From Verrucomicrobiia bacterium (GTDB taxonomy: Bacteria > Verrucomicrobiota > Verrucomicrobiia > Opitutales > Cerasicoccaceae): a stretch of DNA of 64,000 bases. The notes under the pieces were generated by a model. That model made no database searches and was not told where the DNA came from. It saw nothing but the letters and a program-made list of their open reading frames with translations. The DNA is taken from NCBI GenBank assembly GCA_030432235.1, contig JAUIHT010000001.1, forward strand, positions 1,550,001 through 1,614,000. The letters are read 5' to 3'. The position numbers were made by a program, and so were the translations under genes. Below, one piece after another: positions 18,434 to 60,659 of this stretch (position 1 is the first letter of the stretch; each line of letters opens with the position of its first letter).

Positions 18434-19399
18434 TTACTTGCGGCGGCGAATGCCGAGGGCGAGCAGCGCCACGCAACCGGCCATCAGTGCATAGGTCTGT
18501 GGCTCGGGTACGGCGGTGAAGGTGAGGAGGCCATCGCTGACCGTGAAGTAGTCGCCAAAGTCGCCAGTGTTGCCCCCATCGACGGTTAAAAAGCCATCGT
18601 CCCATTGAGTCTCCCACTCCAACTGGCTCAAAAAGCCACTGGCTACATTAATGAAACTGCCGTCGGCAGCAGTAGCAAAGTCGAAATTAATGCTTTTGAT
18701 ACGTGTGGCCGAAACTGCTGTGATAGATGAGACACCGGAGCTGAAACTCACCTGTCCTAAACCGGGGGTGCTGGTATTCACATAACGGAATTCACCATTG
18801 GCACCGCCATCGGTATTGGCCACAATGGAGCCGCCGTTCGAAAGATTCAGTATGGGATCCGGTGTCCCGTTAATTCCGTAGTAGTATGAGCCTACGGTCA
18901 TCGTCATGCTGTCAACATTGACGGTCGAGGTGCGTTGATTAAATCGTCCTCCGGTCAAGTCGAAGCTGCCTGAGAGCAGGTTAACCGTTGAGGTATTGTT
19001 CATCTGGAACGAGTCCGCTGCGATTTCGCTATCGGATTGCGTGACACTGCCACCATTCACGGTAAAGACGGAATCGTTGTTGATGTTCAGGCGCCCACTG
19101 GCGATATCGAAGCTGCCGCCAGTAAGATTCCACGTTCCGCCTGCCATCGTGTTGTTGCCTCCCGATACGAAGCTGACCGCCCCGTTGGATTGATTGATAT
19201 TAGCAGTGAAGTTTGCCGAAATTACAGGCGTGCCGCTATTGATGGTTCCGGTATTGCCACTGGTGTCAGGAGCGCCGCTGCTCCAGTTACTGCTATTGGC
19301 AAAGTTTTCGCTGTCAAACCCGCCTACCCAAGTGGTCTGGGCGGAGGCGAGGGGTATGAGGATAGCAAGTGCGAGGGGGGTAGAAATCAACTTTTTCAT
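18434..19399 (-). CDS. PEP-CTERM sorting domain protein, Asn/Ser/Gly-rich
   Basis: A 321-residue protein with a signal peptide (residues 1-20, ending ASAQ). The mature part is low-complexity and beta-helix-like, made of irregular repeats of the type GTWNLTGGSFDIASGRLNI and LLSGSFDLTGGRF, as in autotransporter-like passenger domains. The C-terminus is VPEPQTYALMAGCVALLALG plus IRRRK, a typical PEP-CTERM signal. It is a probable surface or matrix protein; no enzyme motif is visible. The promoter region on the minus strand contains the palindrome at 19416-19433, which shares the CGTTAAATCA half-site with the 17-mer family. Confidence 0.85.
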   Translation of the reverse strand: MKKLISTPLALAILIPLASAQTTWVGGFDSENFANSSNWSSGAPDTSGNTGTINSGTPVISANFTANINQSNGAVSFVSGGNNTMAGGTWNLTGGSFDIASGRLNINNDSVFTVNGGSVTQSDSEIAADSFQMNNTSTVNLLSGSFDLTGGRFNQRTSTVNVDSMTMTVGSYYYGINGTPDPILNLSNGGSIVANTDGGANGEFRYVNTSTPGLGQVSFSSGVSSITAVSATRIKSINFDFATAADGSFINVASGFLSQLEWETQWDDGFLTVDGGNTGDFGDYFTVSDGLLTFTAVPEPQTYALMAGCVALLALGIRRRK

Positions 19400-19560: not shown

Positions 19561-20232
19561 ATGGTTGCCGCCAAACCCAAAAAGAAACGTAAGAGTAAGA
19601 CCGCACCTCGCATCAGTCTTTCCCAGAAAGCGTATGACTACCTGCTGGAAAAGTTGATGACCAACCAGTTGGCCCCGGGGGACTTGCTGAATCGCCGGGA
19701 GATCGCCGAAGAGCTGAACATCAGCGTCGCGCCGGTCCTTGAGGCCGTTGTGCAGCTGGAGGCCGATGGTATTCTGGAGTCCATTCCGCGCAAAGGCACA
19801 CGTGTTTGCGGGGTTCGCATGGAGGATTTGCGTGGGCAGATTATTATCCGTGAAGCGCTTGAGTGTGCGGCCGCAAGAATCTACTGCGGCAAGCGTGTTC
19901 AGGACAATCACGGCGATCTGGAGGTGCTCGCGCTCAAGGCGGACAAGTCCGACAAAGACATCCGTGTCGGCTGGAACGTCGAAAACGAATTCCACTGTGC
20001 TTTGGTGGCCCTGACCGGAGTGCCGATGCTCCTGAATGCGTTTACCAATGTGATGCGCAAGAAGCTCTTTATGGGCATCCAGCTCTATCAGCAGGTGCAT
20101 CCCGAGGGGGTGAGGGATAGTCATATCCGCCTCCTGGATGCTCTCAAGTCCGCGTCGCCGGACGAGGCCGAGCGCCTCATTCGCAACCATATCCGCAACG
20201 GTAAGGAAACGCTCTTCCAGGACCTGCGTTAA
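19561..20232 (+). CDS. GntR-family transcriptional regulator (FadR/FCD type)
   Basis: A 223-residue regulator. A Lys/Arg-rich N-terminal tail (residues 1-15) precedes the winged helix-turn-helix: AYDYLLEKLMTNQLAPGDLL, NRREIAEELNIS and LEADGILESIPRKGTRV. The C-terminal half is helical with an FCD-like pattern: IIIREALECAAARIYCG, NEFHCALVALTG and HIRLLDALKSASPDEAERLIRNHI. FCD-type regulators usually sense carboxylates or sugar acids, such as glucuronate, galactonate or sialic acid in well-studied relatives. That fits the sugar-acid dehydratase and aldolase genes further along, although control of those genes is inference. It is transcribed alone from its own promoter, with a secreted esterase gene 62 bases downstream. 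Confidence 0.88.
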   Translation: MVAAKPKKKRKSKTAPRISLSQKAYDYLLEKLMTNQLAPGDLLNRREIAEELNISVAPVLEAVVQLEADGILESIPRKGTRVCGVRMEDLRGQIIIREALECAAARIYCGKRVQDNHGDLEVLALKADKSDKDIRVGWNVENEFHCALVALTGVPMLLNAFTNVMRKKLFMGIQLYQQVHPEGVRDSHIRLLDALKSASPDEAERLIRNHIRNGKETLFQDLR

Positions 20233-22568: not shown

Positions 22569-23375
22569 ATGCAAAGTACAATGAACTCCATTACCCCGTC
22601 TGTAGAGCCTGGTTTCGATCAGGAAACGGTTAGCCGGCTTCGTCAGGATTATCAAAAAGATGGTTATGTCCTTCTCAAGGGATTCCTTTCTCCGGAGGAG
22701 GTTAGCGAGACCCTTGAACAACTCGCACTCTTCCGTCGCGAGGTCCTGCCCACCATGCCTGACCACCATGTTTTTTACGAGGACAAGGATAAGCCGGATA
22801 CGCTTAAGCAGCTTCAGCATTTGGACGAATACCATCCCTTTTTCCACGACTTGCTGCATGGCAGCCGCTTCCAGCGCGTAGCGGAAATTCTGCTGGAGGA
22901 TGCGGTGGTGCCACGCAATTTCCAATATTTCAACAAGCCACCGCTGGTCGGCCAGCCCACGCCGCCGCACCAGGATGGCTACTACTTCATGCTCAACCCT
23001 TGCGAGGCCGTTACCATGTGGCTGGCTCTCGAGTCCGTTGACGAAATCAATGGCTGCGTACGCTACATTCCCGGATCGCATCAGCGTGAGATGCGTCCGC
23101 ACACGCGCACGGGCACGCTGGGCTTTTCACAGGGGATACTCAATTATGGTCCGGATGACTTTGCACAGGAGCGGTCCTTTCCCGCTGAAGCTGGCGACCT
23201 GTTGGTGCATCATGCCATGACGATCCATCGGGCCGACCGCAACAACTCATCCACGCGCACGCGGCAGGCTCTGGGGTTCATCTATTACGCCGAGCGAGCA
23301 CGTGAGGATAAAGCTGCACACGAGGCCTATGCCGAAAAACTCCGCCAGGAAATGCAGGCGGGTAACCGTATCTGA
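22569..23375 (+). CDS. Phytanoyl-CoA dioxygenase (PhyH) family protein
   Basis: A 268-residue Fe(II)/2-oxoglutarate-dependent oxygenase. The facial triad is visible: H134-x-D136 in PPHQDGYYF and the distal H220 in AMTIHRADRN, with R232 as likely 2-oxoglutarate ligand. The segments GYVLLKGFLSPEEV and INGCVRYIPGSHQ are typical of the family. No signal peptide, so cytoplasmic. An in-frame ATG at 22581 is an alternative start. In glycan regions of the PVC group, PhyH enzymes are common but their substrates are mostly unknown; oxidative removal of a methyl or similar group from a sugar is possible. It is divergent from AraC and abuts the convergent DUF6259-like gene with no base between. Confidence 0.88.
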   Translation: MQSTMNSITPSVEPGFDQETVSRLRQDYQKDGYVLLKGFLSPEEVSETLEQLALFRREVLPTMPDHHVFYEDKDKPDTLKQLQHLDEYHPFFHDLLHGSRFQRVAEILLEDAVVPRNFQYFNKPPLVGQPTPPHQDGYYFMLNPCEAVTMWLALESVDEINGCVRYIPGSHQREMRPHTRTGTLGFSQGILNYGPDDFAQERSFPAEAGDLLVHHAMTIHRADRNNSSTRTRQALGFIYYAERAREDKAAHEAYAEKLRQEMQAGNRI

Positions 23376-26300
23376 TCAAGGCTTGATGCTCGCCTGCAAC
23401 TGGACATCCGCAAGGTTGTAGGTCAGGGCGCCGGTGGTCGCGACTTTCAGTCCAATCGTCCCCATGATCGCGGAACTGGGCTCCAGGCTCAGTCCACGTT
23501 CGGAGAAGATGACTTCGGGCTGGTTGCCCAGGCGCTCAATCTTGAGGTCATAGTACTGGCGTCCGGCGGCGCCACCGGCATAGGTGGCGCCGAGGGTGCC
23601 GGTATAGGTGACGCGGTACCAGGCGTTGGCGTCAGCCCCGACGCGCCGGCCATTGAGGATGAGGTCCCTGAAGGAGTTGAAGGACCCGGTGGTTTGCACC
23701 TGAAACTTGCCGTTGCTATTGGAAGTGCCCACCAGGCGCAGGCCGAAGAACGGTGAGTTTGCCGTGGGCCCGCCCATGAGCTGGACGATGCAGGAGGCAC
23801 CGCTTTGGATATCCGTTAAGGACAAGTCGAAGCTTAGTTGCAACTGGTCATCGCTGTAGGGCTCCCAAGGCTGGACCGCCGGACTGTTTGCGGTGGTGAC
23901 CAGCTTCATGGCTGGTGCGCCGGCTTCTTTGGTGTCGGGACGGCTGATTGTTAGTTGCTTCCCGGCAGGCGTGAACCCGTCCAGAGGAGTGCTGGCGGTA
24001 ACTATTTCGCTGGCCGTACCCTTCTTCCCCAGGCCGTCGTAGGTAATCGTCCAGGGATCGCCGAGGGGGCCGTCGGCATAGGCGAACTCTTCGTCGATGA
24101 CCGTCTGCGGCGTGCCGTCTCCGCGGTTTTTGCGCTCTGGTTTCTCGAGAATGCTTGGCTCGACAACGCGCACGGTGAAGTCACCCCGGATGTCCTTACC
24201 CACGAGCGTGAGGGACAAGACCACATTCTGTCCGGCATAGGCTGCGAGGTCGAAGCTCAGCGGCACGGATTCCTTGCCGCCGGGCAGTTTTATGCGGTTA
24301 AGCTCCTGGTCGTTGACGGAGAGGACGGCATAAAGGGAGCCGGTGCCGCCGGGGCCGGAGCGATTCGAGACCTGGGTCTGGAAAATAGCAGGCGTATCCG
24401 GAAGCTGTAGAAGCCAATCGACAATCAACTGGGTGCGAAGCGGCAGATGTACTTCGAAGTTTTCGCCTTGTGGCGTCAAGGTCGGTGCGGGCTCGCCTTC
24501 CGGCAGTGGCCAACCCCAGACGTCGAGTTGTGTGAGTGTGTAGGGGAGGTCAGCGAGGGCTTGTCCCGGCTCAACGGCGAGCGGCGCGCGATTTCCTGCC
24601 ACGGTCAGGCCTGCCTTGGCTGCGATCTGCTTGCTGTCGCCGTCAGCTTTCACCTCAAGCGATTCGTTTACGTTGAAGGCGTGTGACCAGTCTTTCGGCA
24701 GGCCGGCCAGGGTGGTATCCCCGCTGTCGTCGGAGGCAAACTGCACGACGCGCGGCTGGTACCAGATGCCCCGGTCCTCCGTGGCGTCTTCCCGGGGGCC
24801 GGCACCCGCGATAAGCTGCAAGGTGATCGTCTTCCCGGCGAAGGGGGCGAGGTCGAGGTTTAGCGGGAGCTTGGCGTCGTCCGGGGCGAAAACACCTGCC
24901 TCGCGACTTTCGTCACCGGCGGTGGCGCGGACGGTGAAATCCATGCCGTCGCATTGGCGGGTGCGCACGGCGCGTCCATCCAGACCGACCTCCGAAATGA
25001 AGGCCGCATGGCCGTCCTCAGGGACGTATACCTGATAGCTGGCGTAAATTTCGCCGACGGCTTTAGCCTGGTTGCCAACGGTGCTTTCCAGATCGGTGGC
25101 CAGCCGGGCCTTGGACGGCGGCGTGATGGCCAGTGTGCCTGCCGCGCCGGAAAGGTTCGAGCCATAGCGTCCGCTGACGCCGCCCGTTTCCGTGTACGTT
25201 TCGCCGCTGTCGAGAAGCAGCCCGCATTGTGCCTCGGGCAGAGCCTCGACCAGGGAGAGCAAGGGCGCCTCGTTGCGCCGGAGTTGGAAGAGCAGGAAGT
25301 CCGGGCTCAGGCGCGCGCCGTCAGGCCGCAATCCGTCCGGGATACTGTCTACGTGTGGTGCGTGCAGGTCGCGCGGCTCGTTGAAGTAGGCGTAGAAGCG
25401 TTCCGGTTCCAGGCCGTAGATTTTCGTATCGTTGTAAAAAAGCCAGCCGTCGACCTTGCCAGGCAGCTCGACTTCGCTGACGTCGATCAAGGTGCGGAAC
25501 TTTTCTTCGCCGTCCACAACGAAGGAGCGATTGCTCATCCAGCGCACGGGGGTGCCGTCCTCGCCGATAAAAGGAAAGAGCACGTCGTCGGGCCAGGCGC
25601 CGTCGAGGTCGGGCTCGAGTCGGAGCCGTTGGAAGGTCTTAAGCTGTTCGACAAGCTGTTGATGAAAGCCCACGGGCTGGGCGAGTTTCAACGGAGAGTC
25701 CTCGCGGAAATAACGTAGGTACGGATAGATGCCCCAAACCATGTAGTTTTCCATCCAGGCATTGTAGGGTTGCGGTTTTTCCATGGGGTGGGGGAAGCCC
25801 AGCCAGCCATAATGCCGCGTGTAGGGCTGGAACAGGTAGGAGTCGATGGGGTGTGCGATGCTCAGCGCGGCGCGGTCGACGGTGCCACCCATGGCGCTCC
25901 AGACGTGGCGCTGGGCGAAGTCCATATAGGCGAAAGTGAGCTCGTTCAGGCCTTCGCCGCCGAGTGCGATGCCGGGCAGGGCTTCACGGACTTCCTTGTG
26001 GTATTGGAGGATGCCTTCGTTAAAGGTCAGCCCGTCGATGATGCCGTTGAAGTCGTTGTGGGCGTGGAAATTCTGGTCCAGGTGGATGGCGTCGGCGCCG
26101 GTGGCCTCAAGGGTACGCTTGAGTTCGCCGATGAAGAACTCCCGCCACTTTTTGCTGGCCGGGCTGATGTAGTTCATGATCACCGGCGGGTTTTGGTTAT
26201 AGTTCGCATAGCGACCGCGGGAGCCGTCCTGTTTGAGCAGGTGATAGGGCGCCATCTCCGCATAGATCGGATGATCCGGGGAGACGCCCCAGAAATTTAC

Positions 26301-27365
26301 GTGCACCATGACCTTGAAGCCGAGGGCTTGGGCTTTCTTGATGAAGGCAAGGTAGTTCTCGGCGGGCTCGTGGTAGTTGGGAGCGTCACGATCAAAGTGC
26401 TGATTGCGCCAATGGTGCATGTAGAGCAGCGTCTGCTTCGGATCGAATTGGCGGGCCAGCTCTTGCAGCAGCTCATCGTTGACGAATTCGATGGTGGTGA
26501 AAGCGTAGATGTCGGCGACCCAGGCCGGGTTATGGTCGGCCAGGGGTTTCGCGCCAAAGGCTGCCGCGGCCCAGGCACGATAACGCTGAGCGGGCACGCG
26601 CCAGTCGCCCTCGTAGGTATTGATGTACCAGCGCCGTGGCTGCAGCGTTGTCTTATCGTCGAAGGGGGCGTCGTTGATGGAGGTGCAGACGATTTTCCAT
26701 CCCTTGTCGCTACGCTCTACACGGACGTTCTTGGGGGAGCCGTGAGTATCGTCGCCGAACAGGTAAAAGCCGTGGTCCTTGCCTTCAACGATGAGCAGCT
26801 GGGCATCCCAGCCCAGGGGATAGTCATAGTTGCGAACTTTGTAAGGAGAGTTACGGGTCAACTTCTCCCCGCCGCCTCGGGTGCTGATGATATTGTACTC
26901 AAGAGGGATATACGCGATGGTCCAGGAGGCGGATTCGAGCCCGGTCTCGGTCTGGGCAGTCGGCAGTACATACAAGTCGCCTTTTTCGGTGACACTTATC
27001 TGGAGTGCGCCCTCCGCATCGGTCAGTTTGGGGAACTGGCTGAACTCTATCTTGGCAATGCCTTCCGCCGAAGCCTCGTCAATGAAGGTCTTGCGCGGAA
27101 GGTAGGTCTTCCCGTTGACATGCAGCTCGAAGGAGCGCCCGGTGTCGCCAACGGTGACCAAGTCGCGGTCCTGGGCGTCGACCAGCCCGACCAGCGCGCC
27201 GTGCCGGAAGGTGGCTTGCCAGGCATCCGTTTCCACTCGCAGGATGTCGTTTTGCGCCAAGGCGGCCGGCGCCAGAAGCATGATGGACAACAGGCTAAGG
27301 CCTGCTTGGAACAGATGCGACGGGCGCGGCGTTTTTTTAATCGGGGAAGGTTTTACAGGGGGCAT
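23376..27365 (-). CDS. Large secreted putative glycosidase (DUF6259-like TIM barrel, multi-domain)
   Basis: A 1329-residue protein with a signal peptide (to about residue 38, APAALAQ). An N-terminal beta-sandwich (40-270, with YPLGWDAQLLIVEG and EGDWRVPAQRYRAW) precedes a barrel of about 280-560. The strand ADAIHLDQNF carries D430 and the strand LGGEGLNE carries E471; these acidic residues are invariant in the paralogue at 37872 and are the best catalytic candidates. After linkers come an NPCBM-like domain (about 760-870), a second beta-sandwich (about 990-1090) and a C-terminal jelly roll (about 1100-1329). The last closely resembles the complete ectodomain of the PEP-CTERM protein at 28550. 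The family name DUF6259 is from memory of the barrel pattern and is tentative. A TGAAATATCA motif lies 26 bases upstream of the start. Confidence 0.7.
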   Translation of the reverse strand: MPPVKPSPIKKTPRPSHLFQAGLSLLSIMLLAPAALAQNDILRVETDAWQATFRHGALVGLVDAQDRDLVTVGDTGRSFELHVNGKTYLPRKTFIDEASAEGIAKIEFSQFPKLTDAEGALQISVTEKGDLYVLPTAQTETGLESASWTIAYIPLEYNIISTRGGGEKLTRNSPYKVRNYDYPLGWDAQLLIVEGKDHGFYLFGDDTHGSPKNVRVERSDKGWKIVCTSINDAPFDDKTTLQPRRWYINTYEGDWRVPAQRYRAWAAAAFGAKPLADHNPAWVADIYAFTTIEFVNDELLQELARQFDPKQTLLYMHHWRNQHFDRDAPNYHEPAENYLAFIKKAQALGFKVMVHVNFWGVSPDHPIYAEMAPYHLLKQDGSRGRYANYNQNPPVIMNYISPASKKWREFFIGELKRTLEATGADAIHLDQNFHAHNDFNGIIDGLTFNEGILQYHKEVREALPGIALGGEGLNELTFAYMDFAQRHVWSAMGGTVDRAALSIAHPIDSYLFQPYTRHYGWLGFPHPMEKPQPYNAWMENYMVWGIYPYLRYFREDSPLKLAQPVGFHQQLVEQLKTFQRLRLEPDLDGAWPDDVLFPFIGEDGTPVRWMSNRSFVVDGEEKFRTLIDVSEVELPGKVDGWLFYNDTKIYGLEPERFYAYFNEPRDLHAPHVDSIPDGLRPDGARLSPDFLLFQLRRNEAPLLSLVEALPEAQCGLLLDSGETYTETGGVSGRYGSNLSGAAGTLAITPPSKARLATDLESTVGNQAKAVGEIYASYQVYVPEDGHAAFISEVGLDGRAVRTRQCDGMDFTVRATAGDESREAGVFAPDDAKLPLNLDLAPFAGKTITLQLIAGAGPREDATEDRGIWYQPRVVQFASDDSGDTTLAGLPKDWSHAFNVNESLEVKADGDSKQIAAKAGLTVAGNRAPLAVEPGQALADLPYTLTQLDVWGWPLPEGEPAPTLTPQGENFEVHLPLRTQLIVDWLLQLPDTPAIFQTQVSNRSGPGGTGSLYAVLSVNDQELNRIKLPGGKESVPLSFDLAAYAGQNVVLSLTLVGKDIRGDFTVRVVEPSILEKPERKNRGDGTPQTVIDEEFAYADGPLGDPWTITYDGLGKKGTASEIVTASTPLDGFTPAGKQLTISRPDTKEAGAPAMKLVTTANSPAVQPWEPYSDDQLQLSFDLSLTDIQSGASCIVQLMGGPTANSPFFGLRLVGTSNSNGKFQVQTTGSFNSFRDLILNGRRVGADANAWYRVTYTGTLGATYAGGAAGRQYYDLKIERLGNQPEVIFSERGLSLEPSSAIMGTIGLKVATTGALTYNLADVQLQASIKP

Positions 27366-27390
27366 GAGCCTATTACTTTAAAACTTCATG

Positions 27391-27400
27391 TGAAATATCA
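27391..27400 (+). promoter_or_regulatory. TGAAATATCA motif upstream of the 1329-residue enzyme gene
   Basis: A near-palindromic decamer (TGA-WATW-TCA). Identical copies lie at 28396, 48878 and 50641, and a 9/10 copy at 27462. All lie in gaps in front of genes. Confidence 0.4.
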
Positions 27401-27461
27401 ATCATTTTCTGCGTTTGAGTCTCAAGTCCGGCTAACGGCATCAGGCAGGATGGAGTTGCAT

Positions 27462-27491
27462 TGAAATATCTCAAAATATTTTCACTTGACG
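27462..27491 (+). repeat. Promoter block, copy 1 (TGAAATATC...ACTTGACG)
   Basis: The 30 bases TGAAATATC, three variable bases, AAATATTTT, one variable base, ACTTGACG match those at 28396-28425 at 26 of 30 positions. TTGACG at the end looks like a -35 box. It lies 53 bases before the PEP-CTERM gene at 27545. Confidence 0.5.
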
Positions 27492-27544
27492 ACAGTGGGG
27501 ATTTAGGCGGTGATAAAGCTACATTTAAACCCCAAAGTACCCCT

Positions 27545-28345
27545 ATGAAAAAAAGTCTCTTTGCGCTACTCTCTTTACTCATGGTTTTGGGCACGGCCCA
27601 GGCGACAGTCCTCGTGACCGGATTTGATGGCTATGACAATGCAGCTCTGATTGGACAGGATAGCCCGCAGGGGCAGACTTGGACTTATCTGCAAAATGCC
27701 AATCATCCTTTGACTGTTTCCAGTGGAAGCCTGCCGTTTGTTGCCGCCGGTGAAGACGTCACGGTGGGCTTCAGTGGGGGAGCGGTTTATCAAAATACCA
27801 CCCTCTATGTAGGCATGGACCTGACTATCGCTTCCGGTCTGGCTGCGGATACGGAAGGCTATGTCGGCGCTTTTTCCGCAAATACTGAGCCCACTGCTCT
27901 CGCTTATGGCGCCCGGATTTACGGTAAGACCATCGATGCGAGTACATTGAATTTTGGGATTTCGGCCGGCTTCCGTGGAGGCAGAACCTATGGTGCGACG
28001 GCATACAATCTCGATCAGTCCTATCGTATCGTCGTGGCCTACAGTTTTTCCGACGCTGCCAGTAACAACGAGACTGTGACGATGTACGTCAATCCCACAT
28101 CGGGTGACGAAGGCGAGCAAACCATCTACGCTACCTACACGCGTACATCCGCTATCGGCACCTATCCGCTGGTCGATACGGTAAGCCAGTTTCAGGTTTT
28201 TCAGGATGTGTTTAGTGGCTCCATGGAGGATCTGGTCGTGGCCACCACGTTCTCGGAGGCGGCAGCGATTCCCGAGCCGACAGCCTTTGCCTGGTGTGCG
28301 GGTATCCTCGTCGTCCTCTTTGTTGCTTATCGCCGCCGCCGATAA
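27545..28345 (+). CDS. PEP-CTERM sorting domain protein
   Basis: A 266-residue protein from the ATG at 27545 (MKKSLFALLSLLMVLGTAQA signal peptide; upstream in-frame codons would spoil it). The mature part is beta-rich, with segments such as VLVTGFDGYDNAAL and TLYVGMDLTIASG, resembling concanavalin-like/LamG-type PEP-CTERM proteins. The tail is I-P-E-P-T-A, a hydrophobic helix (WCAGILVVLFVA) and YRRRR. It is divergent from the large glycosidase gene and shares a duplicated promoter block with the PEP-CTERM gene that follows, so the three are probably co-regulated. A carbohydrate-binding or matrix role is likely but unproven. Confidence 0.85.
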   Translation: MKKSLFALLSLLMVLGTAQATVLVTGFDGYDNAALIGQDSPQGQTWTYLQNANHPLTVSSGSLPFVAAGEDVTVGFSGGAVYQNTTLYVGMDLTIASGLAADTEGYVGAFSANTEPTALAYGARIYGKTIDASTLNFGISAGFRGGRTYGATAYNLDQSYRIVVAYSFSDAASNNETVTMYVNPTSGDEGEQTIYATYTRTSAIGTYPLVDTVSQFQVFQDVFSGSMEDLVVATTFSEAAAIPEPTAFAWCAGILVVLFVAYRRRR

Positions 28346-28395
28346 ATCATTCCTCTGATAACCCGATTGAGCGAAAGGAATGCTCTCTCGCCCAC

Positions 28396-28425
28396 TGAAA
28401 TATCAGCAAATATTTTAACTTGACG
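28396..28425 (+). repeat. Promoter block, copy 2
   Basis: 26 of 30 bases match 27462-27491. It contains an exact TGAAATATCA (28396-28405) and ends in TTGACG (28420-28425), with TACCTT 16 bases further on as a possible -10 box. It is 124 bases before the PEP-CTERM gene at 28550. Confidence 0.5.
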
Positions 28426-28513
28426 GCGTTGCATTCGTGAATACCTTAGAGAACAATATTATTTATCTGCGTTAGCAGTCCAGTAATCACCCCAAAATCC
28501 CGAATCGTTATCC

Positions 28514-28530
28514 TTTAATCACTGATTAAA
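28514..28530. promoter_or_regulatory. Perfect palindrome TTTAATCACTGATTAAA
   Basis: Two 8-bp arms around a single central base, 19 bases before the ATG at 28550. The arm TTTAATCA is also the right half of the 17-mer at 1033-1049, so the same or a related regulator may bind. Confidence 0.5.
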
Positions 28531-28549
28531 CTCCAAGCCTTAAAATATC

Positions 28550-29431
28550 ATGAAAAAGTTCAAATACCTCACTCCCCAAATTGTCGTGGCATCCTGCCTC
28601 TTCTCGGCCTCAGCTTTGTGTGGCCAGACTTACATCGATGAACAATTTGATTATTCCGACGGCCAGCTCGGCTCGCCCTGGGTCATCACCTACGGTGGTA
28701 TCGGTGAGCAGGGAACGGCTGTTGAGAATGTCGAAGCGGCTGATACCTTAAACAGCTATACGCCTTCCGGTAAGCAGGCGTATGTCGATCGCCCGAGTAC
28801 AGGAACGGCGGGTGCTCCGGTACTCACCTTGGCCACCGACACGGCGAGTCCCGTAACAAACGAGTGGACCGTCACCGAAGGCGACATGGTACAACTGACT
28901 TTCGATGTGGCCCAAAGCAACTTTACGAACGGTTCTTCCACCGCTTTCCAATTGAAGGGCGGCTCATCCACCAACGTTACTTTCTTCGGTATGCGAATTG
29001 TAGGCACCAGCGTCAGCGCCGGTAAATTCCAGGTCATGACAACAGGTTCGACCGCTTCATTCACGGACTTGCTGGTTGAGAGTAACCCGGTGAGTGCGTC
29101 TATCGATACCTGGTACCGTGTGACGTACTTGGGAACCATCGGCAATACTGTCGGAGGCGGACAGGAGCAGACGTATGATCTGCAAATCGAGCAGCTCGGC
29201 ACTGGCGGCGGCATCGTCTACAGTGGCACCGATTTGAGCCTGACGACGACGGCGTCTATTGGCGGTCCTGGCGGCTTTGCCTCCTTCACTGGTGGTGTCA
29301 CGGGTTATCGTTTTGCCGATGTAAATCTCGCTGCCGTACCCGAACCCGAGCATAGCGCTGCTATGTTGATGGGCCTGGCCGGTCTTGCCTGGTTGATGCG
29401 CAAGCGCTTCTTCCGGAAGAGCCGCGGTTAA
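28550..29431 (+). CDS. PEP-CTERM protein homologous to the C-terminal module of the 1329-residue enzyme
   Basis: A 293-residue protein with signal peptide (residues 1-25, SALCGQ). The ectodomain (26-265) lines up along its full length with residues about 1095-1329 of the enzyme encoded at 23376. Shared segments include IDEQF-YSDG-LGSPW-ITY-G-G, SYTPSGKQ, TGTAGAPVLTLAT, KFQVMTTGS, DTWYRVTYLGTIG and YDLQIEQLG. It ends with a VPEPEHSAAM tail, a hydrophobic helix and MRKRFFRKSRG. The fold is probably a concanavalin-like jelly roll that could bind a sugar polymer, so enzyme and surface protein may target the same ligand. The region before the gene holds the promoter block, a perfect palindrome and TAAAATATCA overlapping the start. 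Confidence 0.87.
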   Translation: MKKFKYLTPQIVVASCLFSASALCGQTYIDEQFDYSDGQLGSPWVITYGGIGEQGTAVENVEAADTLNSYTPSGKQAYVDRPSTGTAGAPVLTLATDTASPVTNEWTVTEGDMVQLTFDVAQSNFTNGSSTAFQLKGGSSTNVTFFGMRIVGTSVSAGKFQVMTTGSTASFTDLLVESNPVSASIDTWYRVTYLGTIGNTVGGGQEQTYDLQIEQLGTGGGIVYSGTDLSLTTTASIGGPGGFASFTGGVTGYRFADVNLAAVPEPEHSAAMLMGLAGLAWLMRKRFFRKSRG

Positions 29432-37871: not shown

Positions 37872-40625
37872 TCAGGAGTCGATGGGCGGGGCAGGCTTTT
37901 TCAGTAGTATCTCACCCGGCATGGGGATGTGCAAGATGAGCGTTTCACCGGACGGCTCGGCGGCGTATCCGTTTTCCAGAGCCACGCCAGCGAGCCAGTC
38001 GGGAGCCTGGCTGACGGCGAGCAGTCCTTTGGGGGTTTGCAGGTTGTGCTCGATGCGAGGGTTGTCCCAGATGCCGCGATCTTCGGTGGCGTCATTGGCC
38101 GGACCTGCCCCTGCGCTGAGTTCCAGCGTGATGGTTTGGCCGGCGAAGCGCGCGAGGTCGAGTTCCAGGGCTTGGGGTGTGGCGGTGTCGTTGTGGAGCT
38201 CGGCCCCGACGTATTCCGTTTTATTGCTGGCCACGACTTTAAAGGTGACGCCGTCGGTCTTGTCTTTACCAATGGAGCGGCCGTCCATGTAGACATCGGC
38301 GTAGAATCGCAGATTGCCACTGTCCGGCAAGGTAACCGTGAATGAGGCGTAGACCTCGCCGAGGCCGCGTGCGCGATTGGCGGCGTCGGACTCGAAGTCC
38401 TCGGACATGCCGGTGGCCGAGGGGGGCGTACTCCGCATGGTGCCCGCAGTGCCATTGAGGATGGCGTTGTGGGACAGATTGGAGTCCCCCGGAGGCAGCG
38501 CCGTTTTGCGGCCGTTCATGAGCAGTCCGACGGTAGCCTTCTGAAGGTGTTCGACACAGTCGAAAACGAGTCCGCCGGTCTGGAATGTTTCCAGGCTCAA
38601 CTGCGCTTCGTCCACCACGACGTCCTTTGCGGAAAAGCCGTCTTGCAGCTCACTGATGTGTGGCACGGACAAGTCGCGCGGCGTTTCGAAGTAGGGATAC
38701 CAGGCGGACGGGTTCAGGCCGAAAATCTTTTCGGCATTGTAGAGTTTCCAGCCCGGAATCGTGCCGGGCAGCTCGACTTCGGTTACGCCGCTGACGGTAC
38801 GCGCGATCTCTTCGTCGTTGGCCAGAACAGCGCCGTTTTTGGTTTCGATGACGGCCAGGCCGTCGTCTGTTTGATAAGGGAAGGCGATGTCCGCGCTCCA
38901 GTCTCCATCCGTATCAGGGACGACCAGGTGTTTTTGCCAGTACTGTGCCTTGTCGAGGGCCTGACGCATGCCAGGGGAGGGGTCGAGCAGATCCTCGTGA
39001 TTTGAGCGAATGGTCTTTACCGTCGGCAGGATGCCCCAGGGGCGGTAGTTTTCCCACCATACGTTGTAGAGTGTCCAGTTGTCGTCCGGCGAGGGTTGTC
39101 CAAGCCAGCCGTACAGGTAGCAATAAGGTGAGAATAGGTAGGACGATATCGGGTGGGCCATGCTGAGCGCGGCGCGGTCGATGGTGCCGCGCATGGCGCT
39201 GTAGACATGGCGCTGGGCAAAGGCCATGTCGCGCGAGCTGACTTCGTTAAGGCCTTCGCCACTGAGCGCGACTTCGGGCAATGCTTCGCGGACGGCCTGG
39301 TGAAAGGCGATGATGCCCTGGCTCATCGTCATGTCGTCGATGAGGCCGTTCTGGTCATTGTGGACGTGGAAATTCTGGTCGAGGTGGATCGCGTCGATTT
39401 TGAGGTCTTCCACCAGTGCCTGGGTGCGCTCAATGAACAACTCCTGCCACCCCGGGCTGGCCGGATTGATGTAGGCGAGCTCCACCGGCGGATTCTGACG
39501 GGTGTTTTTATAGCCGAGTGTTTTAAAAGGTGCGCTAGGTGAACGGATATGGTGCTTGCTCAGGCTCTCGTAGACGGGGTGTGTCGGGTCGACGGCGAAG
39601 AAGTTCATGTGAACCATGATGCGGAAGCCCAGCTCGTGGGCGCGTTCGATGTACTGGCGCACGCCGGAAGCGTACTGGTCGTAATCGGGGTACATCCGGT
39701 CGAACTCCTGCTTGCGCCAATGATTCAGGTAAAGCACGGTTTGCGGCGGATTGAAGACCTGGGCCAGAGAATCGAGCAGCTCGATATTGCTACCTGAATA
39801 AACCATGGTACGAACCCCCGCGACCCAAGCGGGTGTCTGCTCGGCGAGCGGGATGAAGTTTTCCTGTGCCTGCATCCAGTCGCGGTAGCGTCTGGCCGGG
39901 ACGCGCCAATCGCCCTGGTATACGTTCAGGTGCCAGGGCTTGGATTGGCAACGGGTCAGTCCGGCGAAGGGGGCCTGATTGGTGGAGGAGAAGGTGAGCA
40001 GCCAGCCTTCCGGGCTGCGACGTACGACCAGGCCTTTGAAATTTCCCTCGGTGTCGTCCGCCCAGACGTAAAAGCCTCCCGTTTGCCCTTCGATAATGAC
40101 AAGCTGTGCTTCCCAGCCCATAGGGTAGCTGTAGGAGTGAAAGTCTCCCGGTGAATCCTTGGTCAGGCGTACACCTCCGGCGCCGGGCACGATGATATTG
40201 CTATCCAGCGGAATCATGCCGATGGACCACTGCACCTGCTTTAGGCCGGATTTGGTCGACTCGGCTGTCTGGGTGAGAATCAAATCTCCTGAGCCGGGCT
40301 CGGTGGTGATTTGCTCTATGAGCGTGGCGTTGCCCAAGTCATAGTCCAATGCCAGGTCCAGATTCGGCGTATTTTTCAGGCTGACGGACTCAGAACCAGA
40401 AGCTTTTTCATGCCCGGATTCCCAGGATATGCCTGCGCCGGAAGTTTCGCCGGAGTCCACGACCAGCGTATGGCCGTCATCGTCAATTAGAGAGACCAGG
40501 GAGCCGTTTCGGAAGGTGGCTGAGAATCCAAGGTGCCCGGCGGATTCTTCCGTGCCGGCTGACGTCAGGCATTGCATTAAACAAAGGGCGATGAGGGCGG
40601 GTGCGGGGTTGCGCAATCGGGTCAT
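37872..40625 (-). CDS. Secreted putative glycosidase (DUF6259-like), paralogue of the 23376 gene
   Basis: A 917-residue protein from the ATG at 40625, which gives a good signal peptide (ALIALCLMQCLTSAG); the longer frame from 40712 would not. Domain order is N-terminal beta-sandwich, TIM barrel (about 260-540) and NPCBM-like domain (about 720-850). Against the 1329-residue paralogue, conserved segments are YPMGWEAQLVIIEG, QGDWRVPARRYRDW, DAIHLDQNFH with D416, LSGEGLNE with E457, and AGAGPANDATEDRGIWDNPR. It lacks the C-terminal jelly roll. It heads a five-gene operon with mutarotase-like, BNR, dehydrogenase and enolase-superfamily genes. Reaction unknown; a retaining or inverting glycosidase on a sugar acid-containing glycan is plausible. 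Confidence 0.72.
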   Translation of the reverse strand: MTRLRNPAPALIALCLMQCLTSAGTEESAGHLGFSATFRNGSLVSLIDDDGHTLVVDSGETSGAGISWESGHEKASGSESVSLKNTPNLDLALDYDLGNATLIEQITTEPGSGDLILTQTAESTKSGLKQVQWSIGMIPLDSNIIVPGAGGVRLTKDSPGDFHSYSYPMGWEAQLVIIEGQTGGFYVWADDTEGNFKGLVVRRSPEGWLLTFSSTNQAPFAGLTRCQSKPWHLNVYQGDWRVPARRYRDWMQAQENFIPLAEQTPAWVAGVRTMVYSGSNIELLDSLAQVFNPPQTVLYLNHWRKQEFDRMYPDYDQYASGVRQYIERAHELGFRIMVHMNFFAVDPTHPVYESLSKHHIRSPSAPFKTLGYKNTRQNPPVELAYINPASPGWQELFIERTQALVEDLKIDAIHLDQNFHVHNDQNGLIDDMTMSQGIIAFHQAVREALPEVALSGEGLNEVSSRDMAFAQRHVYSAMRGTIDRAALSMAHPISSYLFSPYCYLYGWLGQPSPDDNWTLYNVWWENYRPWGILPTVKTIRSNHEDLLDPSPGMRQALDKAQYWQKHLVVPDTDGDWSADIAFPYQTDDGLAVIETKNGAVLANDEEIARTVSGVTEVELPGTIPGWKLYNAEKIFGLNPSAWYPYFETPRDLSVPHISELQDGFSAKDVVVDEAQLSLETFQTGGLVFDCVEHLQKATVGLLMNGRKTALPPGDSNLSHNAILNGTAGTMRSTPPSATGMSEDFESDAANRARGLGEVYASFTVTLPDSGNLRFYADVYMDGRSIGKDKTDGVTFKVVASNKTEYVGAELHNDTATPQALELDLARFAGQTITLELSAGAGPANDATEDRGIWDNPRIEHNLQTPKGLLAVSQAPDWLAGVALENGYAAEPSGETLILHIPMPGEILLKKPAPPIDS

Positions 40626-40858
40626 TAGAGGTGCGGGGACTTGCGGTTGGCTTGTCGGGGTAACAGGGATACAGCGAATACATTCCCGAAAATAGTTCAA
40701 GTAATATATCAAAAAAGTCGTTTAAATATATTCACTGCCGTTGGATGTGGCGCAGGTCGCATGGTTATTGGAAGCCGATCGTAGGCTCGGTGCAATCCGT
40801 GTCCGGGGGCATGATATTTTTCTCGACGTAAGGCTTGAAATTGTGAAAAACGTATCAT

Positions 40859-48877: not shown

Positions 48878-48887
48878 TGAAATATCA
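48878..48887 (+). promoter_or_regulatory. TGAAATATCA motif directly before the FAD oxidoreductase start
   Basis: An exact copy of the decamer, ending 2 bases before the ATG at 48890; TTGACC is at 48855-48860. In this position it would lie in or at the start of the mRNA, so it might also act on translation. Confidence 0.4.
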
Positions 48888-56453: not shown

Positions 56454-59400
56454 TTAGTTTGACTGCGTCGCATCTACACGGGCAAACCCGCTATCTCCAG
56501 GCATAGGCACACGCTCGATGCAGCGATAAAGGCCGTTGCCCATATCGGTCATTTCGACCAATTCTGTGCCGGCAATATTTGCGGTTCGGCTGACGCCCAG
56601 GCCGGTTCCGTTGGGCGTGAAGGTCGTCGCCACGGTCCAGCCATCGGTGAGATTGCCTGTGGTTTGTACGGTATAAGTGGCATCGTCGGCATCCTCACGA
56701 ATGAAGAACTCCACCTCCATGCCATCGCCGGGTGCGGCATCGCGCAGCTTTGTTTCAGCACGTGAGCCTGGCTTGGTGGGGTCGCCGCCCAGCAAATACT
56801 CTCCCTCGTTGCTCAAGCCGTCGCCGTCGAAATCCGCCTCTGGCAGCGTTTCTCCGCTACGGTGAGCAATTCCGTCGAAGGACGCGTCTAGCCAACTCAC
56901 ATAGTTCGCCCCTAGCATAACGCAGGGGAGGCCGTTCCACGTTGGAGTTGTAAACCCTGTCGCTCCTTCGTAAAAATATGCAGTTGGCCCAAAATCGTTC
57001 TGGGTGAAATTATATGAACTAATGTTAGCTGGGACATCACCCCTGAAAATAATGCTACGTAAGCTGTCGCCGGATGGAATGGCACTTTGCCCGACATCCA
57101 TGAGCGTAGAAGGTATGGTGATACTTTGCATACCGTCACAATGTGAAAAGACACTTGAATACATCGTTGTCAGCCCTTCCGGTAACGTAATCGATAGAAG
57201 ACTCGTGCAACCTTGAAAGGCACTTTTTCCAATAGTCATCAAGCTTTGAGGAAATTCTATGCTTTTCAGGCCTGTGCAGTTCAGGAATGCCCACTCGTCG
57301 ATCAAGTTAACGTGATTCCCTATTCTAACGGATTCAAGTTGATTGCAGGCATCGAATGCATGGGCTGGAATAGTGGTTACACCACTGCCGAGGAATACAC
57401 TTTTTAGACTGTAGCAACGCAGGAATAGGTGGTTTCCTATGCTTGTTACTCCATTGGGTATCGTTATTTCGACAAGGGAAGAGCAGTCGAGAAATGCGTA
57501 TGAACCAATGAACGTTACACTTTCGGGGATATTAATAGATTCCAGACTTGTGCATTTGTAAAAGGCATAGCCATTGATAGCCTTGAGTCCCTCAGCCAGC
57601 TCAATATTCGTCAGGGAGCTGCAGGCTTCAAAGGTATTGAAGTCCAAGGTGATAACGCTCGGAGGGATACTTACGCTCTCCAGAGCGGAACAACCTTCGA
57701 AGGTGTTTCGCCCGATGATGGTTAAGCCATTTGGCAACGCTATGCTCTTCAATTTTTCGCAATTGTAGAAAGTGCTTTCTCCTACACTCGTAAGATTGGC
57801 ACTAAATGTCACGTTCTCCAATTCGCTACACCCAGAAAATGCCTCATCTTCAATGGTTGTGACACTGTCGGGGAGTTCGATGTTTGTCAGAGATATGCAG
57901 TCCTTGAAGGCGGAGTCGCCTATGGTGGCAACATTTGTTCCTAGGGAGATGATTCGCAGCTTTGGGCAATTGAAGAATGCAACGTCATCAATTGTCACTA
58001 CTGTGTTGGATACGGTTACTTCCTCCAAGCCGGAGCAATGTCCGAAGGCCAAGAAACCAATGGTTTCCATGCCTTCAGGTATAATTACACTCTTCAATTC
58101 ATGAAAGTAACTCAGTGCGTAGCTGACGATGCTTGTAACTGGTAGTCCCTCGATGGTTTCAGGGATTATGAGGTCCACATCCGCCGAATCGGAGTGGTCA
58201 GTGATGCTAACCTTGCCTTGAATGGAAATCTGATAAACCAGGCCGTTGTTCGTCGTTGCTGTGTATACTTCAGGATCGAACAGTGACCAAGAGGAACGGT
58301 TAAAACCAGTTGCGCCGGAATAATAATAGATCACTTGGTCGAATCCAAAGGAGGAAAATGAAATCGTGGGTGCATTGCCTTCGAAACGGACGTAGTTAAG
58401 ATTGGTGGTACCAAATGCACCGCTGCCGATTGAGGTCACGCTGGCGGGGATGACTATTTCCGTCAGTCCGGTGCAGCCGCGAAAGGCGGAGGTGCCGATA
58501 GTTGAAACGCCATCAGGGATGGTCACTGCGGTCAGCAGGGACGCATCGTAGAACGCATATGAGTAAAGGTTTGCGACCCCATTGGGGATAGCATAGCTTC
58601 CAGCCTTTGCCGCCGGGTAGATGAGCAGAGTGGTTTTGTCCTTATTGAAGAGCACACCGTCCTGGTTGCTGAAAGACGCGTTGTCGTCGGCAACCGTAAT
58701 GGAGGTTAGCGAATGGCAGACGCCAAAGGCGCTGCTAGAGAGCGTGGCGACATTGGCCGGCAGGTGGAGGCTTTGCAGGGACCTGCAAAAATAGAAGGCA
58801 AAATTTCCGACCGACTCCAAACTCTCGGGAAAGATTACCGAGGTTAGGCCTTCATTCATGTAGAAAGCGTAGTCGCCTATGGTCGTCACGCATTCCGGAA
58901 TCACAAAGGTCGTTGCTTTGCCGAAAGGGAATGCGACGAGTGTGCTCTCATCTTTGCTGAAGAGCACGCCATCCACGCTGGCATAGGCAGGATTATTGGC
59001 TGAAACGGAGATGGCCGATAGCGCCGGTGCATCCGTGAAGATGCGCGCGCTAACGGAGGTTATGCTATCTGGAATCGCGATGGTAGCGAGTTGGTCGCAG
59101 CCTTGAATGAAGGCGTTGCCGATGCTGGTGACGCCATCGCGCAGCGTCAGACTGGTCAGGTTATAACAGTTGGCGAACGCGTAGCTACCGATGTCGGCAG
59201 CGGAAACTTGTGCACTGAGTAAACCGGAGCAGTCGCTGAAGGCGTAGGCACCCACTGCGCTGACGTTCGCCGGGATGTTGAGGCCGGTGAGGGCATTGCA
59301 ATCGGCAAAGGCGCTTTCGCCTACGACGATGGTGCCGCCACCGAAAGTCAGATTGGTCAGCTTGGCGCAGCCGGTAAAGGCGTTTACCCCGATATCGCCG

Positions 59401-60659
59401 CCGTTGATTAGCACGTCAACAAGCTCCGGACAATAGCTGAAGGCCTCCTCTCCGATGCTGGTGACGGTGGTTGGGAGGGTTACCGCTGCCAGATCGGCAC
59501 ATTCGGAAAAAGCCTGTTTGCCGATACTGGTCACCCCTTCGAGCAGTTTCACGCTCGTCAAATTGTCGCAGCCTTCGAAAACGCGCTCGCCGATAGAGCC
59601 TCTGCTGACGGTAATGGTAGTGAGTTCGCTGCAGCCACCGAAAGCGCCCATGCCAATGCTTGTTACGCTATCGGGTACCACGACACTGGTCAAGCTGCTG
59701 CAATTTGCGAACGTCCAGGAGCCAATAGATGTCAGTTGGTTGCTCAGGGTTATGGAAGTAAGCTGGGTGCAGCCGTAAAACTCATAACCGGTCAGCGTGG
59801 TTATGTTCTCGCCGAGCACGATGCTAGTCAAGCTGCTGCATCCATAAAAGCCGCGGACGCCAATGCTGAACAGGCTCTCAGGTAAGGCATCCAGGGTCAT
59901 GGCGTGACATCCGGAGAATGCATAATCTCCAATCGTAGTCAGCCCTTCCGGTAAGCATAAAGTCGTCAAGCCATCGCATTGTTTAAAGGCACTATTGCCA
60001 ATGGTGGTCACGCCATTCGGGACATTATAGGGGCCGCTTCTCCCGGGAGGACACCGTAAAAGACTGCTCCCGCTCTTGTTGAAAAGGATACCGTCAGTGC
60101 TCGCGTAAACCGGATTGTCACTGGCGACTTGGATAGATGTCAGCGCCTCGCAGTTCGAGAAGGTCTCATCGGAAATGGACGTTATTCCGGCCGGAATGAA
60201 AAAACTTTCGAGGCTGAGGCAGTTCTTGAAGGCATCATCTTTGATGGTCGTCACGTTGCTTCCAATAGCGACATCGGTCAAACTGTCGCAGCTCTCGAAG
60301 GTGCCATGTTGGATGGTCGTTATTCCGTTGCCGGTAACGACACTGGCCAAGCTGTCACAGGTCGAGAATGCATTCATTTCCATGATCTGGACGCTATCAG
60401 GGATGACCGCTCGTGTTATGGAACGGCAGGCGTAGAAGGCGTAATTCTTAATACGATAAACCGGATAGCCGCCGATGGTTTCCGGAATATTGAGCTCTCC
60501 GACAGCGTCGTAGTTACAGTCTGTAATCGTTACGAGCGAACTATAGACCTCGTAGGTCAGAACGATATTTGTGTCTGGAATCGCGTATTCGGCTCCGCTA
60601 GCCCATGATAGCAACAGGATGGATAATAGGGTGGGAACGATACGTGACCAAGTAGGCAT
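56454..60659 (-). CDS. BspA-like leucine-rich repeat surface protein
   Basis: A 1401-residue protein with a signal peptide (residues 1-23, LLLSWASGA). It is built of LRR_5/BspA-type repeats of about 23 residues with the pattern I-G-x-x-A-F-x-x-C-x-x-L-T-x-V-x-L-P-x-x-V. The repeat tract consists of two blocks with similar caps: block 1 begins VTITDCN...LNIPETIGGYPV and ends near residue 785 at YYYSGATGFNRSSW; block 2 begins near 806 with VSITDHS...LIIPETIEGLPV and ends near 1230 at YFYEGATGFTTPTW. The C-terminal ~170 residues carry the Ca-loop module (DFDGDGLSNEGEYLLGGDP). BspA-like proteins typically mediate adhesion. It is convergent with the 53189 gene, with 4 bases between the stops. Confidence 0.85.
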   Translation of the reverse strand: MPTWSRIVPTLLSILLLSWASGAEYAIPDTNIVLTYEVYSSLVTITDCNYDAVGELNIPETIGGYPVYRIKNYAFYACRSITRAVIPDSVQIMEMNAFSTCDSLASVVTGNGITTIQHGTFESCDSLTDVAIGSNVTTIKDDAFKNCLSLESFFIPAGITSISDETFSNCEALTSIQVASDNPVYASTDGILFNKSGSSLLRCPPGRSGPYNVPNGVTTIGNSAFKQCDGLTTLCLPEGLTTIGDYAFSGCHAMTLDALPESLFSIGVRGFYGCSSLTSIVLGENITTLTGYEFYGCTQLTSITLSNQLTSIGSWTFANCSSLTSVVVPDSVTSIGMGAFGGCSELTTITVSRGSIGERVFEGCDNLTSVKLLEGVTSIGKQAFSECADLAAVTLPTTVTSIGEEAFSYCPELVDVLINGGDIGVNAFTGCAKLTNLTFGGGTIVVGESAFADCNALTGLNIPANVSAVGAYAFSDCSGLLSAQVSAADIGSYAFANCYNLTSLTLRDGVTSIGNAFIQGCDQLATIAIPDSITSVSARIFTDAPALSAISVSANNPAYASVDGVLFSKDESTLVAFPFGKATTFVIPECVTTIGDYAFYMNEGLTSVIFPESLESVGNFAFYFCRSLQSLHLPANVATLSSSAFGVCHSLTSITVADDNASFSNQDGVLFNKDKTTLLIYPAAKAGSYAIPNGVANLYSYAFYDASLLTAVTIPDGVSTIGTSAFRGCTGLTEIVIPASVTSIGSGAFGTTNLNYVRFEGNAPTISFSSFGFDQVIYYYSGATGFNRSSWSLFDPEVYTATTNNGLVYQISIQGKVSITDHSDSADVDLIIPETIEGLPVTSIVSYALSYFHELKSVIIPEGMETIGFLAFGHCSGLEEVTVSNTVVTIDDVAFFNCPKLRIISLGTNVATIGDSAFKDCISLTNIELPDSVTTIEDEAFSGCSELENVTFSANLTSVGESTFYNCEKLKSIALPNGLTIIGRNTFEGCSALESVSIPPSVITLDFNTFEACSSLTNIELAEGLKAINGYAFYKCTSLESINIPESVTFIGSYAFLDCSSLVEITIPNGVTSIGNHLFLRCYSLKSVFLGSGVTTIPAHAFDACNQLESVRIGNHVNLIDEWAFLNCTGLKSIEFPQSLMTIGKSAFQGCTSLLSITLPEGLTTMYSSVFSHCDGMQSITIPSTLMDVGQSAIPSGDSLRSIIFRGDVPANISSYNFTQNDFGPTAYFYEGATGFTTPTWNGLPCVMLGANYVSWLDASFDGIAHRSGETLPEADFDGDGLSNEGEYLLGGDPTKPGSRAETKLRDAAPGDGMEVEFFIREDADDATYTVQTTGNLTDGWTVATTFTPNGTGLGVSRTANIAGTELVEMTDMGNGLYRCIERVPMPGDSGFARVDATQSN

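Follow-up and report, generated by a model that had tools for sequence, protein, structure and literature searches.

Concanavalin A-like (ConA-like) domains are known to occupy accessory positions on carbohydrate-active enzymes, as exemplified by the sialic-acid-binding domain of the V. cholerae sialidase (2w68) and the ConA-like domain of BT_1020 (5mqr). PEP-CTERM proteins, the surface proteins of the PEP-CTERM/exosortase system, have been linked to exopolysaccharide production; they vary widely and show little homology to proteins already known (Haft et al., 2006, PMC1569441). Literature searches for DUF6259 and for PEP-CTERM with LamG each found no paper. In a 64,000-nucleotide stretch of a Verrucomicrobiia genome (hereafter the window), two known elements, accessory ConA-like domains of enzymes and surface proteins of the PEP-CTERM type, are linked by one module. 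This module is found at the C-terminus of a putative secreted glycosidase and as the ectodomain of a PEP-CTERM protein encoded nearby, which we call the 28550 protein after its start position (Table 1).

Table 1. Features of the enzyme–surface protein locus, in window coordinates.
Feature	Position	Strand	Basis
Putative secreted glycosidase, 1329 aa: DUF6259 TIM-barrel-type core and C-terminal module	23376..27365	-	ORF, PF19773
C-terminal ConA-like module of enzyme (residues 1087-1329)	23379..24107	-	BLASTP, AlphaFold2
DUF6259 match in enzyme (residues 247-435)	26061..26627	-	PF19773
TGAAATATCA, candidate operator between enzyme and P0003	27391..27400	+	motif search
33-bp promoter-like repeat copy 1, ends CTTGACG, upstream of P0003	27459..27491	+	85% identical to copy 2
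Interposed gene P0003, second PEP-CTERM-like protein; ends IPEP...hydrophobic...YRRRR	27545..28345	+	ORF
33-bp promoter-like repeat copy 2, upstream of 28550 gene	28393..28425	+	85% identical to copy 1
TGAAATATCA, candidate operator upstream of 28550 gene	28396..28405	+	motif search
PEP-CTERM protein, 293 aa: signal peptide, one module, PEP motif, transmembrane helix, basic tail	28550..29431	+	ORF, TIGR02595
Module copy in 28550 protein (residues 26-266)	28625..29347	+	BLASTP
PEP-CTERM sorting signal of 28550 protein (Pfam residues 262-286)	29333..29407	+	Pfam, TIGR02595
Enzyme paralogue P0007, DUF6259, 946 aa, without module	37872..40712	-	40% identity over ~900 aa

The enzyme has a hydrophobic N-terminus that by eye resembles a signal peptide, followed by a core that it shares with DUF6259 enzymes (Pfam accession PF19773; E 1.8e-17, 63.8 bits against a gathering score of 28.7). 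The enzyme has full-length homologues in the family. A weaker match to GH31 (E 5e-4) was also found, and the activity is likely that of a TIM-barrel glycosidase. The paralogue encoded in the same window also matches GH66 weakly. Further window genes encode sulfatases, a GH1 enzyme, a GH42-like enzyme with an agarase-type CBM, BNR proteins, an SASA esterase, and mandelate-racemase-type and DHDPS-type enzymes. Because of this enzyme set, the locus would appear to serve a sulfated polysaccharide, probably a marine one. The window also encodes a 1401-aa protein (56454-60659) that consists largely of BspA-type leucine-rich repeats (PF13306).

The 28550 protein resembles PEP-CTERM/exosortase surface proteins in its signal peptide, PEP motif, transmembrane helix and basic tail. 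Its sorting signal scored 19.7 bits with TIGR02595 (cut-off 16) and 14.9 bits with PF07589, which is below the Pfam cut-off of 20.7. With TIGR02595 over its cut-off and exosortases encoded in the genome (seven PF09721 matches above cut-off), the exosortase-type sorting signal proposed in a preliminary description of this DNA is upheld. PEP-CTERM matches above the Pfam cut-off number about 80 in this genome, which together with the seven exosortases makes for an unusually large sorting repertoire. Where the 28550 protein differs from the PEP-CTERM proteins of Haft et al. (2006) is in sharing its ectodomain with a secreted enzyme. The C-terminus of that enzyme has neither PEP motif nor transmembrane helix and matches no sorting-signal profile, and a search past its stop codon found no PEP-CTERM remnant.

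Residues 1087-1329 of the 1329-aa enzyme align by BLASTP with residues 26-266 of the 28550 protein, with 114 of 243 positions identical (47%), 2 gaps and an E-value of 9e-67. The residue blocks on which the preliminary description had based its proposal of segment homology are all present and in the same order. The enzyme terminates in ...LQASIKP and a stop codon, and from that point the 28550 protein carries on into its PEP motif. A PhyH-family gene on the plus strand (22569-23375) abuts the enzyme stop codon (23376, minus) with zero bases between them; the two genes lie back to back, and the fused module thus extends right to the neighbouring gene.

A module search of the whole genome returned three copies and no more. 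Besides the enzyme, these are the 28550 protein (E 1.9e-62) and a further PEP-CTERM protein encoded on a different contig (33% identity, E 1.2e-21). Conservation within the enzyme/28550 pair is 51% in strands versus 41% in loops. Across all seven known strong copies (three in this genome and the remainder in the relatives described below) 13 residues are invariant, mostly G, W, P, Y and A/V core positions, and these appear to be structural. Among the four PEP-CTERM copies 55 columns are invariant, and the enzyme copy retains 35 of these and has lost 20.

Profile searches matched the module to no Pfam or NCBIfam family. PF13385 reached 17.2 bits (E 0.0058) on one family member, under its cut-off of 27.6, and gave no match to the enzyme module; among solved structures, no PDB sequence matched the family profile. 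AlphaFold2, supplied with an alignment of six natural module copies, predicted an all-beta jelly roll for the enzyme module (pLDDT 86.7, pTM 0.88). The model of the PEP-CTERM copy (pLDDT 75.0, pTM 0.78) has an equal succession of strands and then directly one C-terminal helix. The best Foldseek E-value for the module model was 8.5e-6, and alignment of both copies to ConA-like structures with VIA-align gave Z-scores of 14-17.5 over 177-208 residues at an rmsd of 2.7-3.6. BT_1020 sialidase (residues 413-616) is the top structural match of the enzyme copy and the PEP-CTERM copy alike (Z 16.9 and 17.5), and the next matches (Z ~14-15.6) are the V. cholerae sialidase sialic-acid-binding domain, PL14 alginate lyase, calreticulin and legume lectins.

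The module is therefore best described, on these models, as a predicted two-sheet sandwich jelly roll of the concanavalin A-like lectin/glucanase superfamily. The structure prediction called for in the preliminary description yields the same fold for the two regions, and at 47% identity the enzyme tail and the PEP-CTERM ectodomain constitute one homologous module. The suggestion of a new fold was wrong, because both models match concanavalin A-like structures, with sialidase, lyase and legume lectin domains nearest; the fold is common but the sequence family is without a name. The 2w68 and 5mqr domains share the same jelly roll with this module (Z 14.6-17.5, rmsd ~3) and a similar accessory position on a carbohydrate-active enzyme, but their sequence identity to it is only 8-15%. 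The nearest relatives of this module are PEP-CTERM ectodomains and not enzyme modules. Many ConA-like domains are catalytic or structural, and a fold in common does not establish function.

Three same-family genomes (G004, G006 and G008) encode homologues of the enzyme (1059, 1067 and 1076 aa across the three) that end at about enzyme residue 1072, just short of its linker and module. These homologues and the window paralogue lack the module, and only this enzyme carries it at the C-terminus. Because the homologues in same-family genomes stop before it, the module reads as a recent C-terminal addition in this lineage. A tree of all seven strong copies, whose root is not known, places the enzyme module as sister to the 28550 protein (support 100/99), with a branch length of 1.24 for the enzyme copy versus 0.13 for the 28550 copy. 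Given this far greater divergence, an identical ligand cannot be assumed, and the loss of 20 positions that are constant in PEP-CTERM copies makes a changed or relaxed function possible. The specificity of the enzyme copy may thus have shifted relative to the PEP-CTERM copies.

The adjacency of the copies, the fast evolution of the enzyme copy and the existence of a module-free paralogue and module-free homologues would all be expected if a tandem PEP-CTERM duplicate had been joined to the enzyme simply by proximity and had persisted as a stable C-terminal cap without selected binding. We consider such a passive fusion rather improbable, since the enzyme carries a full-length open module that keeps 35 of the 55 family-invariant columns and has a confident predicted fold, and since a relative has separately coupled the module, in two copies, to another enzyme.

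That relative came to light in a distribution search of some 840 genomes of the order and phylum, in which strong module matches were confined to three genomes of one family, this one included. The other two are Verrucomicrobiia MAG 5_bin.45 (G004) and Verrucomicrobiota bacterium JB024 (G008). In G004, two modules stand at the N-terminus of a 1107-aa protein that also has a beta-helix (PF13229, E 3.5e-11), and 229 bp away from its gene lies a divergently oriented PEP-CTERM gene that encodes a single module. The pairing of module-bearing enzyme and PEP-CTERM protein, which the preliminary description had proposed seeking in relatives, thus recurs with a different enzyme, and this second genome strengthens the case beyond what that description could offer. 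The surrounding G004 contig shares with the window homologues of an FAD oxidoreductase (70%), an MR/MLE enzyme (76%), a PhyH protein (66%) and a BNR protein (51%), as well as AraC and GntR genes, and carries a DUF6259 homologue without the module. That a related locus has the module on a different enzyme suggests that the ligand belongs to the locus as a whole and not to any single enzyme. In the tree, the pair of modules on the G004 enzyme branches as a clade apart, and none of 200 bootstrap trees unites the enzyme modules; since the enzyme copies are not one clade, at least two couplings of the module to enzymes are likely on these trees. With the root not known, one old coupling followed by losses is an alternative history that the tree also permits.

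The third copy in this genome (G000:C20) and the JB024 copy are PEP-CTERM proteins encoded between an FAD oxidoreductase and a DUF5696 enzyme without the module. All four module PEP-CTERM proteins thus adjoin putative carbohydrate-active enzymes (DUF6259, beta-helix or DUF5696). The G000:C20 and JB024 loci (L013 and L012) represent a second syntenic locus type, comprising the FAD oxidoreductase, the module PEP-CTERM protein, DUF5696, BNR and a pilin-like gene; the G000:C20 locus additionally has a LamG protein.

These layouts bear on the possibility that the enzyme and surface-protein modules bind each other as homotypic sandwich dimers and so anchor the enzyme to the surface protein, docking being an idea already raised in the preliminary description. 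Dimers are common among ConA-like lectins, legume-lectin-like dimerisation offers a precedent, and in two cases an enzyme that is secreted and a protein that is sorted bear the same module side by side. Docking nevertheless strikes us as very improbable, since G000:C20 and G008 pair the module PEP-CTERM protein with an enzyme that lacks the module, which a docking pair does not need. Another possibility is that the ligand of the module is an exopolysaccharide or envelope glycan made by the cell itself, by which the PEP-CTERM proteins and the enzyme would be retained in the matrix near the producer. The presence of the module on the unrelated DUF6259 and beta-helix enzyme classes is as compatible with a host-side ligand as with a shared substrate, and PEP-CTERM proteins are tied to exopolysaccharide production (Haft et al., 2006, PMC1569441). 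We regard own-matrix binding as unlikely, because the module is restricted to particular catabolic loci, with three copies in this genome, and is no general tag on many other secreted enzymes.

Additional searches added no further strong copies. A genome contig collection gave no match when scanned with a three-sequence alignment and only the two already known relatives when scanned with five sequences, and viral contigs gave no match with either three or five sequences. Six loci with weak phylum-level matches were inspected. Three of them (L017, L021 and L024) encode PEP-CTERM proteins whose similar N-W-Y-R motif coincides in position with the W-Y-R of the module. These were set aside as being of unclear homology; they perhaps hint at a wider ConA-like PEP-CTERM ectodomain pool. 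We also rejected L018, which looks like a low-complexity chance match, L026, which is another protein without a clear PEP-CTERM tail, and L025, in which no frame could be read.

The enzyme and 28550 genes had been taken for divergent neighbours a few hundred bases apart. Their start codons (that of the enzyme at 27365, minus; that of the 28550 gene on the plus strand) are in fact separated by 1,185 bp with a second PEP-CTERM gene, P0003, interposed, and it is P0003 that is the enzyme's true divergent neighbour. Neither BLASTP nor profile comparison relates P0003 to the module, and a PEP-CTERM protein at 18434 was likewise rejected as a module relative. Relatives of P0003 are found in most genomes of the family (best 41%).

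The shared promoter motifs reported for the locus are real, though they consist chiefly of a 33-bp direct repeat that precedes the two PEP-CTERM genes; what the enzyme has is the shorter TGAAATATCA. The 18-bp core of the repeat occurs at only these two sites genome-wide (≤2 mismatches), and the repeat was not found in the relatives' loci examined. The decamer TGAAATATCA has eight copies in the 5.72-Mb genome, four of which fall inside a 23-kb stretch of the window where ~0.03 would be expected. These four sites (27391, 28396, 48878 and 50641) each lie upstream of a locus gene, namely the enzyme/P0003 pair, the 28550 gene, an FAD oxidoreductase and a pilin-like gene. Since the motif was first noticed at 27391 and 28396, only the sites at 48878 and 50641 count as independent evidence. 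Its eight-base core AAATATCA occurs eight times in the window versus 0.9 expected from shuffles. Given the upstream motifs common to both, the enzyme and the 28550 surface protein are probably co-regulated. A GntR/FCD regulator (19561-20232), with homologues in the relatives' loci, is a candidate binder of TGAAATATCA. AT-rich sites related to TGAAATATCA are also present upstream of DUF6259 genes in two relatives (L055 and L056).

We propose that, within this polysaccharide locus, a PEP-CTERM surface protein gave rise to a neighbouring duplicate of its ConA-like lectin ectodomain, and that this duplicate, stripped of the sorting signal, was added to the C-terminal end of the secreted DUF6259 glycosidase. 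On the enzyme the module would most likely act as a carbohydrate-binding module that keeps the secreted protein on its polysaccharide, while the exosortase-sorted copy would retain that polysaccharide, or one related to it, on the cell surface or within the matrix. The evidence comprises the homology, the fold prediction, the late C-terminal addition, the sister grouping, the recurrence on another enzyme class and the common upstream motif; from it we infer sugar binding, the same ligand for both copies and the surface location of the PEP-CTERM protein. The rarity of the family, found in three genomes of one family among ~840, counts against this explanation, as do the structural look of the invariant residues, the lower conservation of loops than of strands, and the long branch and lost positions of the enzyme copy. 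As a whole, we give the re-use of a surface lectin as a targeting module on a secreted enzyme a probability of roughly one half.

The copying of a PEP-CTERM ectodomain onto a secreted enzyme, with a second case on another enzyme in a relative, suggests glycan binding by ectodomains of this kind, and the same pattern suggests that the ligand is linked to the substrate of the locus. Two soluble modules that are 47% identical offer a direct small-scale comparison of binding. More tentatively, and with considerable doubt, ConA-like PEP-CTERM ectodomains could form a lectin pool that supplies catabolic loci with targeting modules, with one lectin fitted both to the exosortase-sorted protein and to whichever secreted enzyme degrades the polymer, here yielding a matched surface-and-enzyme capture pair under one operator. 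If true, the capture pair would represent a strategy of Gram-negative bacteria distinct from both cellulosomes and SusCD loci. Most PEP-CTERM proteins have no known role, and a lectin pool, if real, would explain what some of these numerous proteins do.
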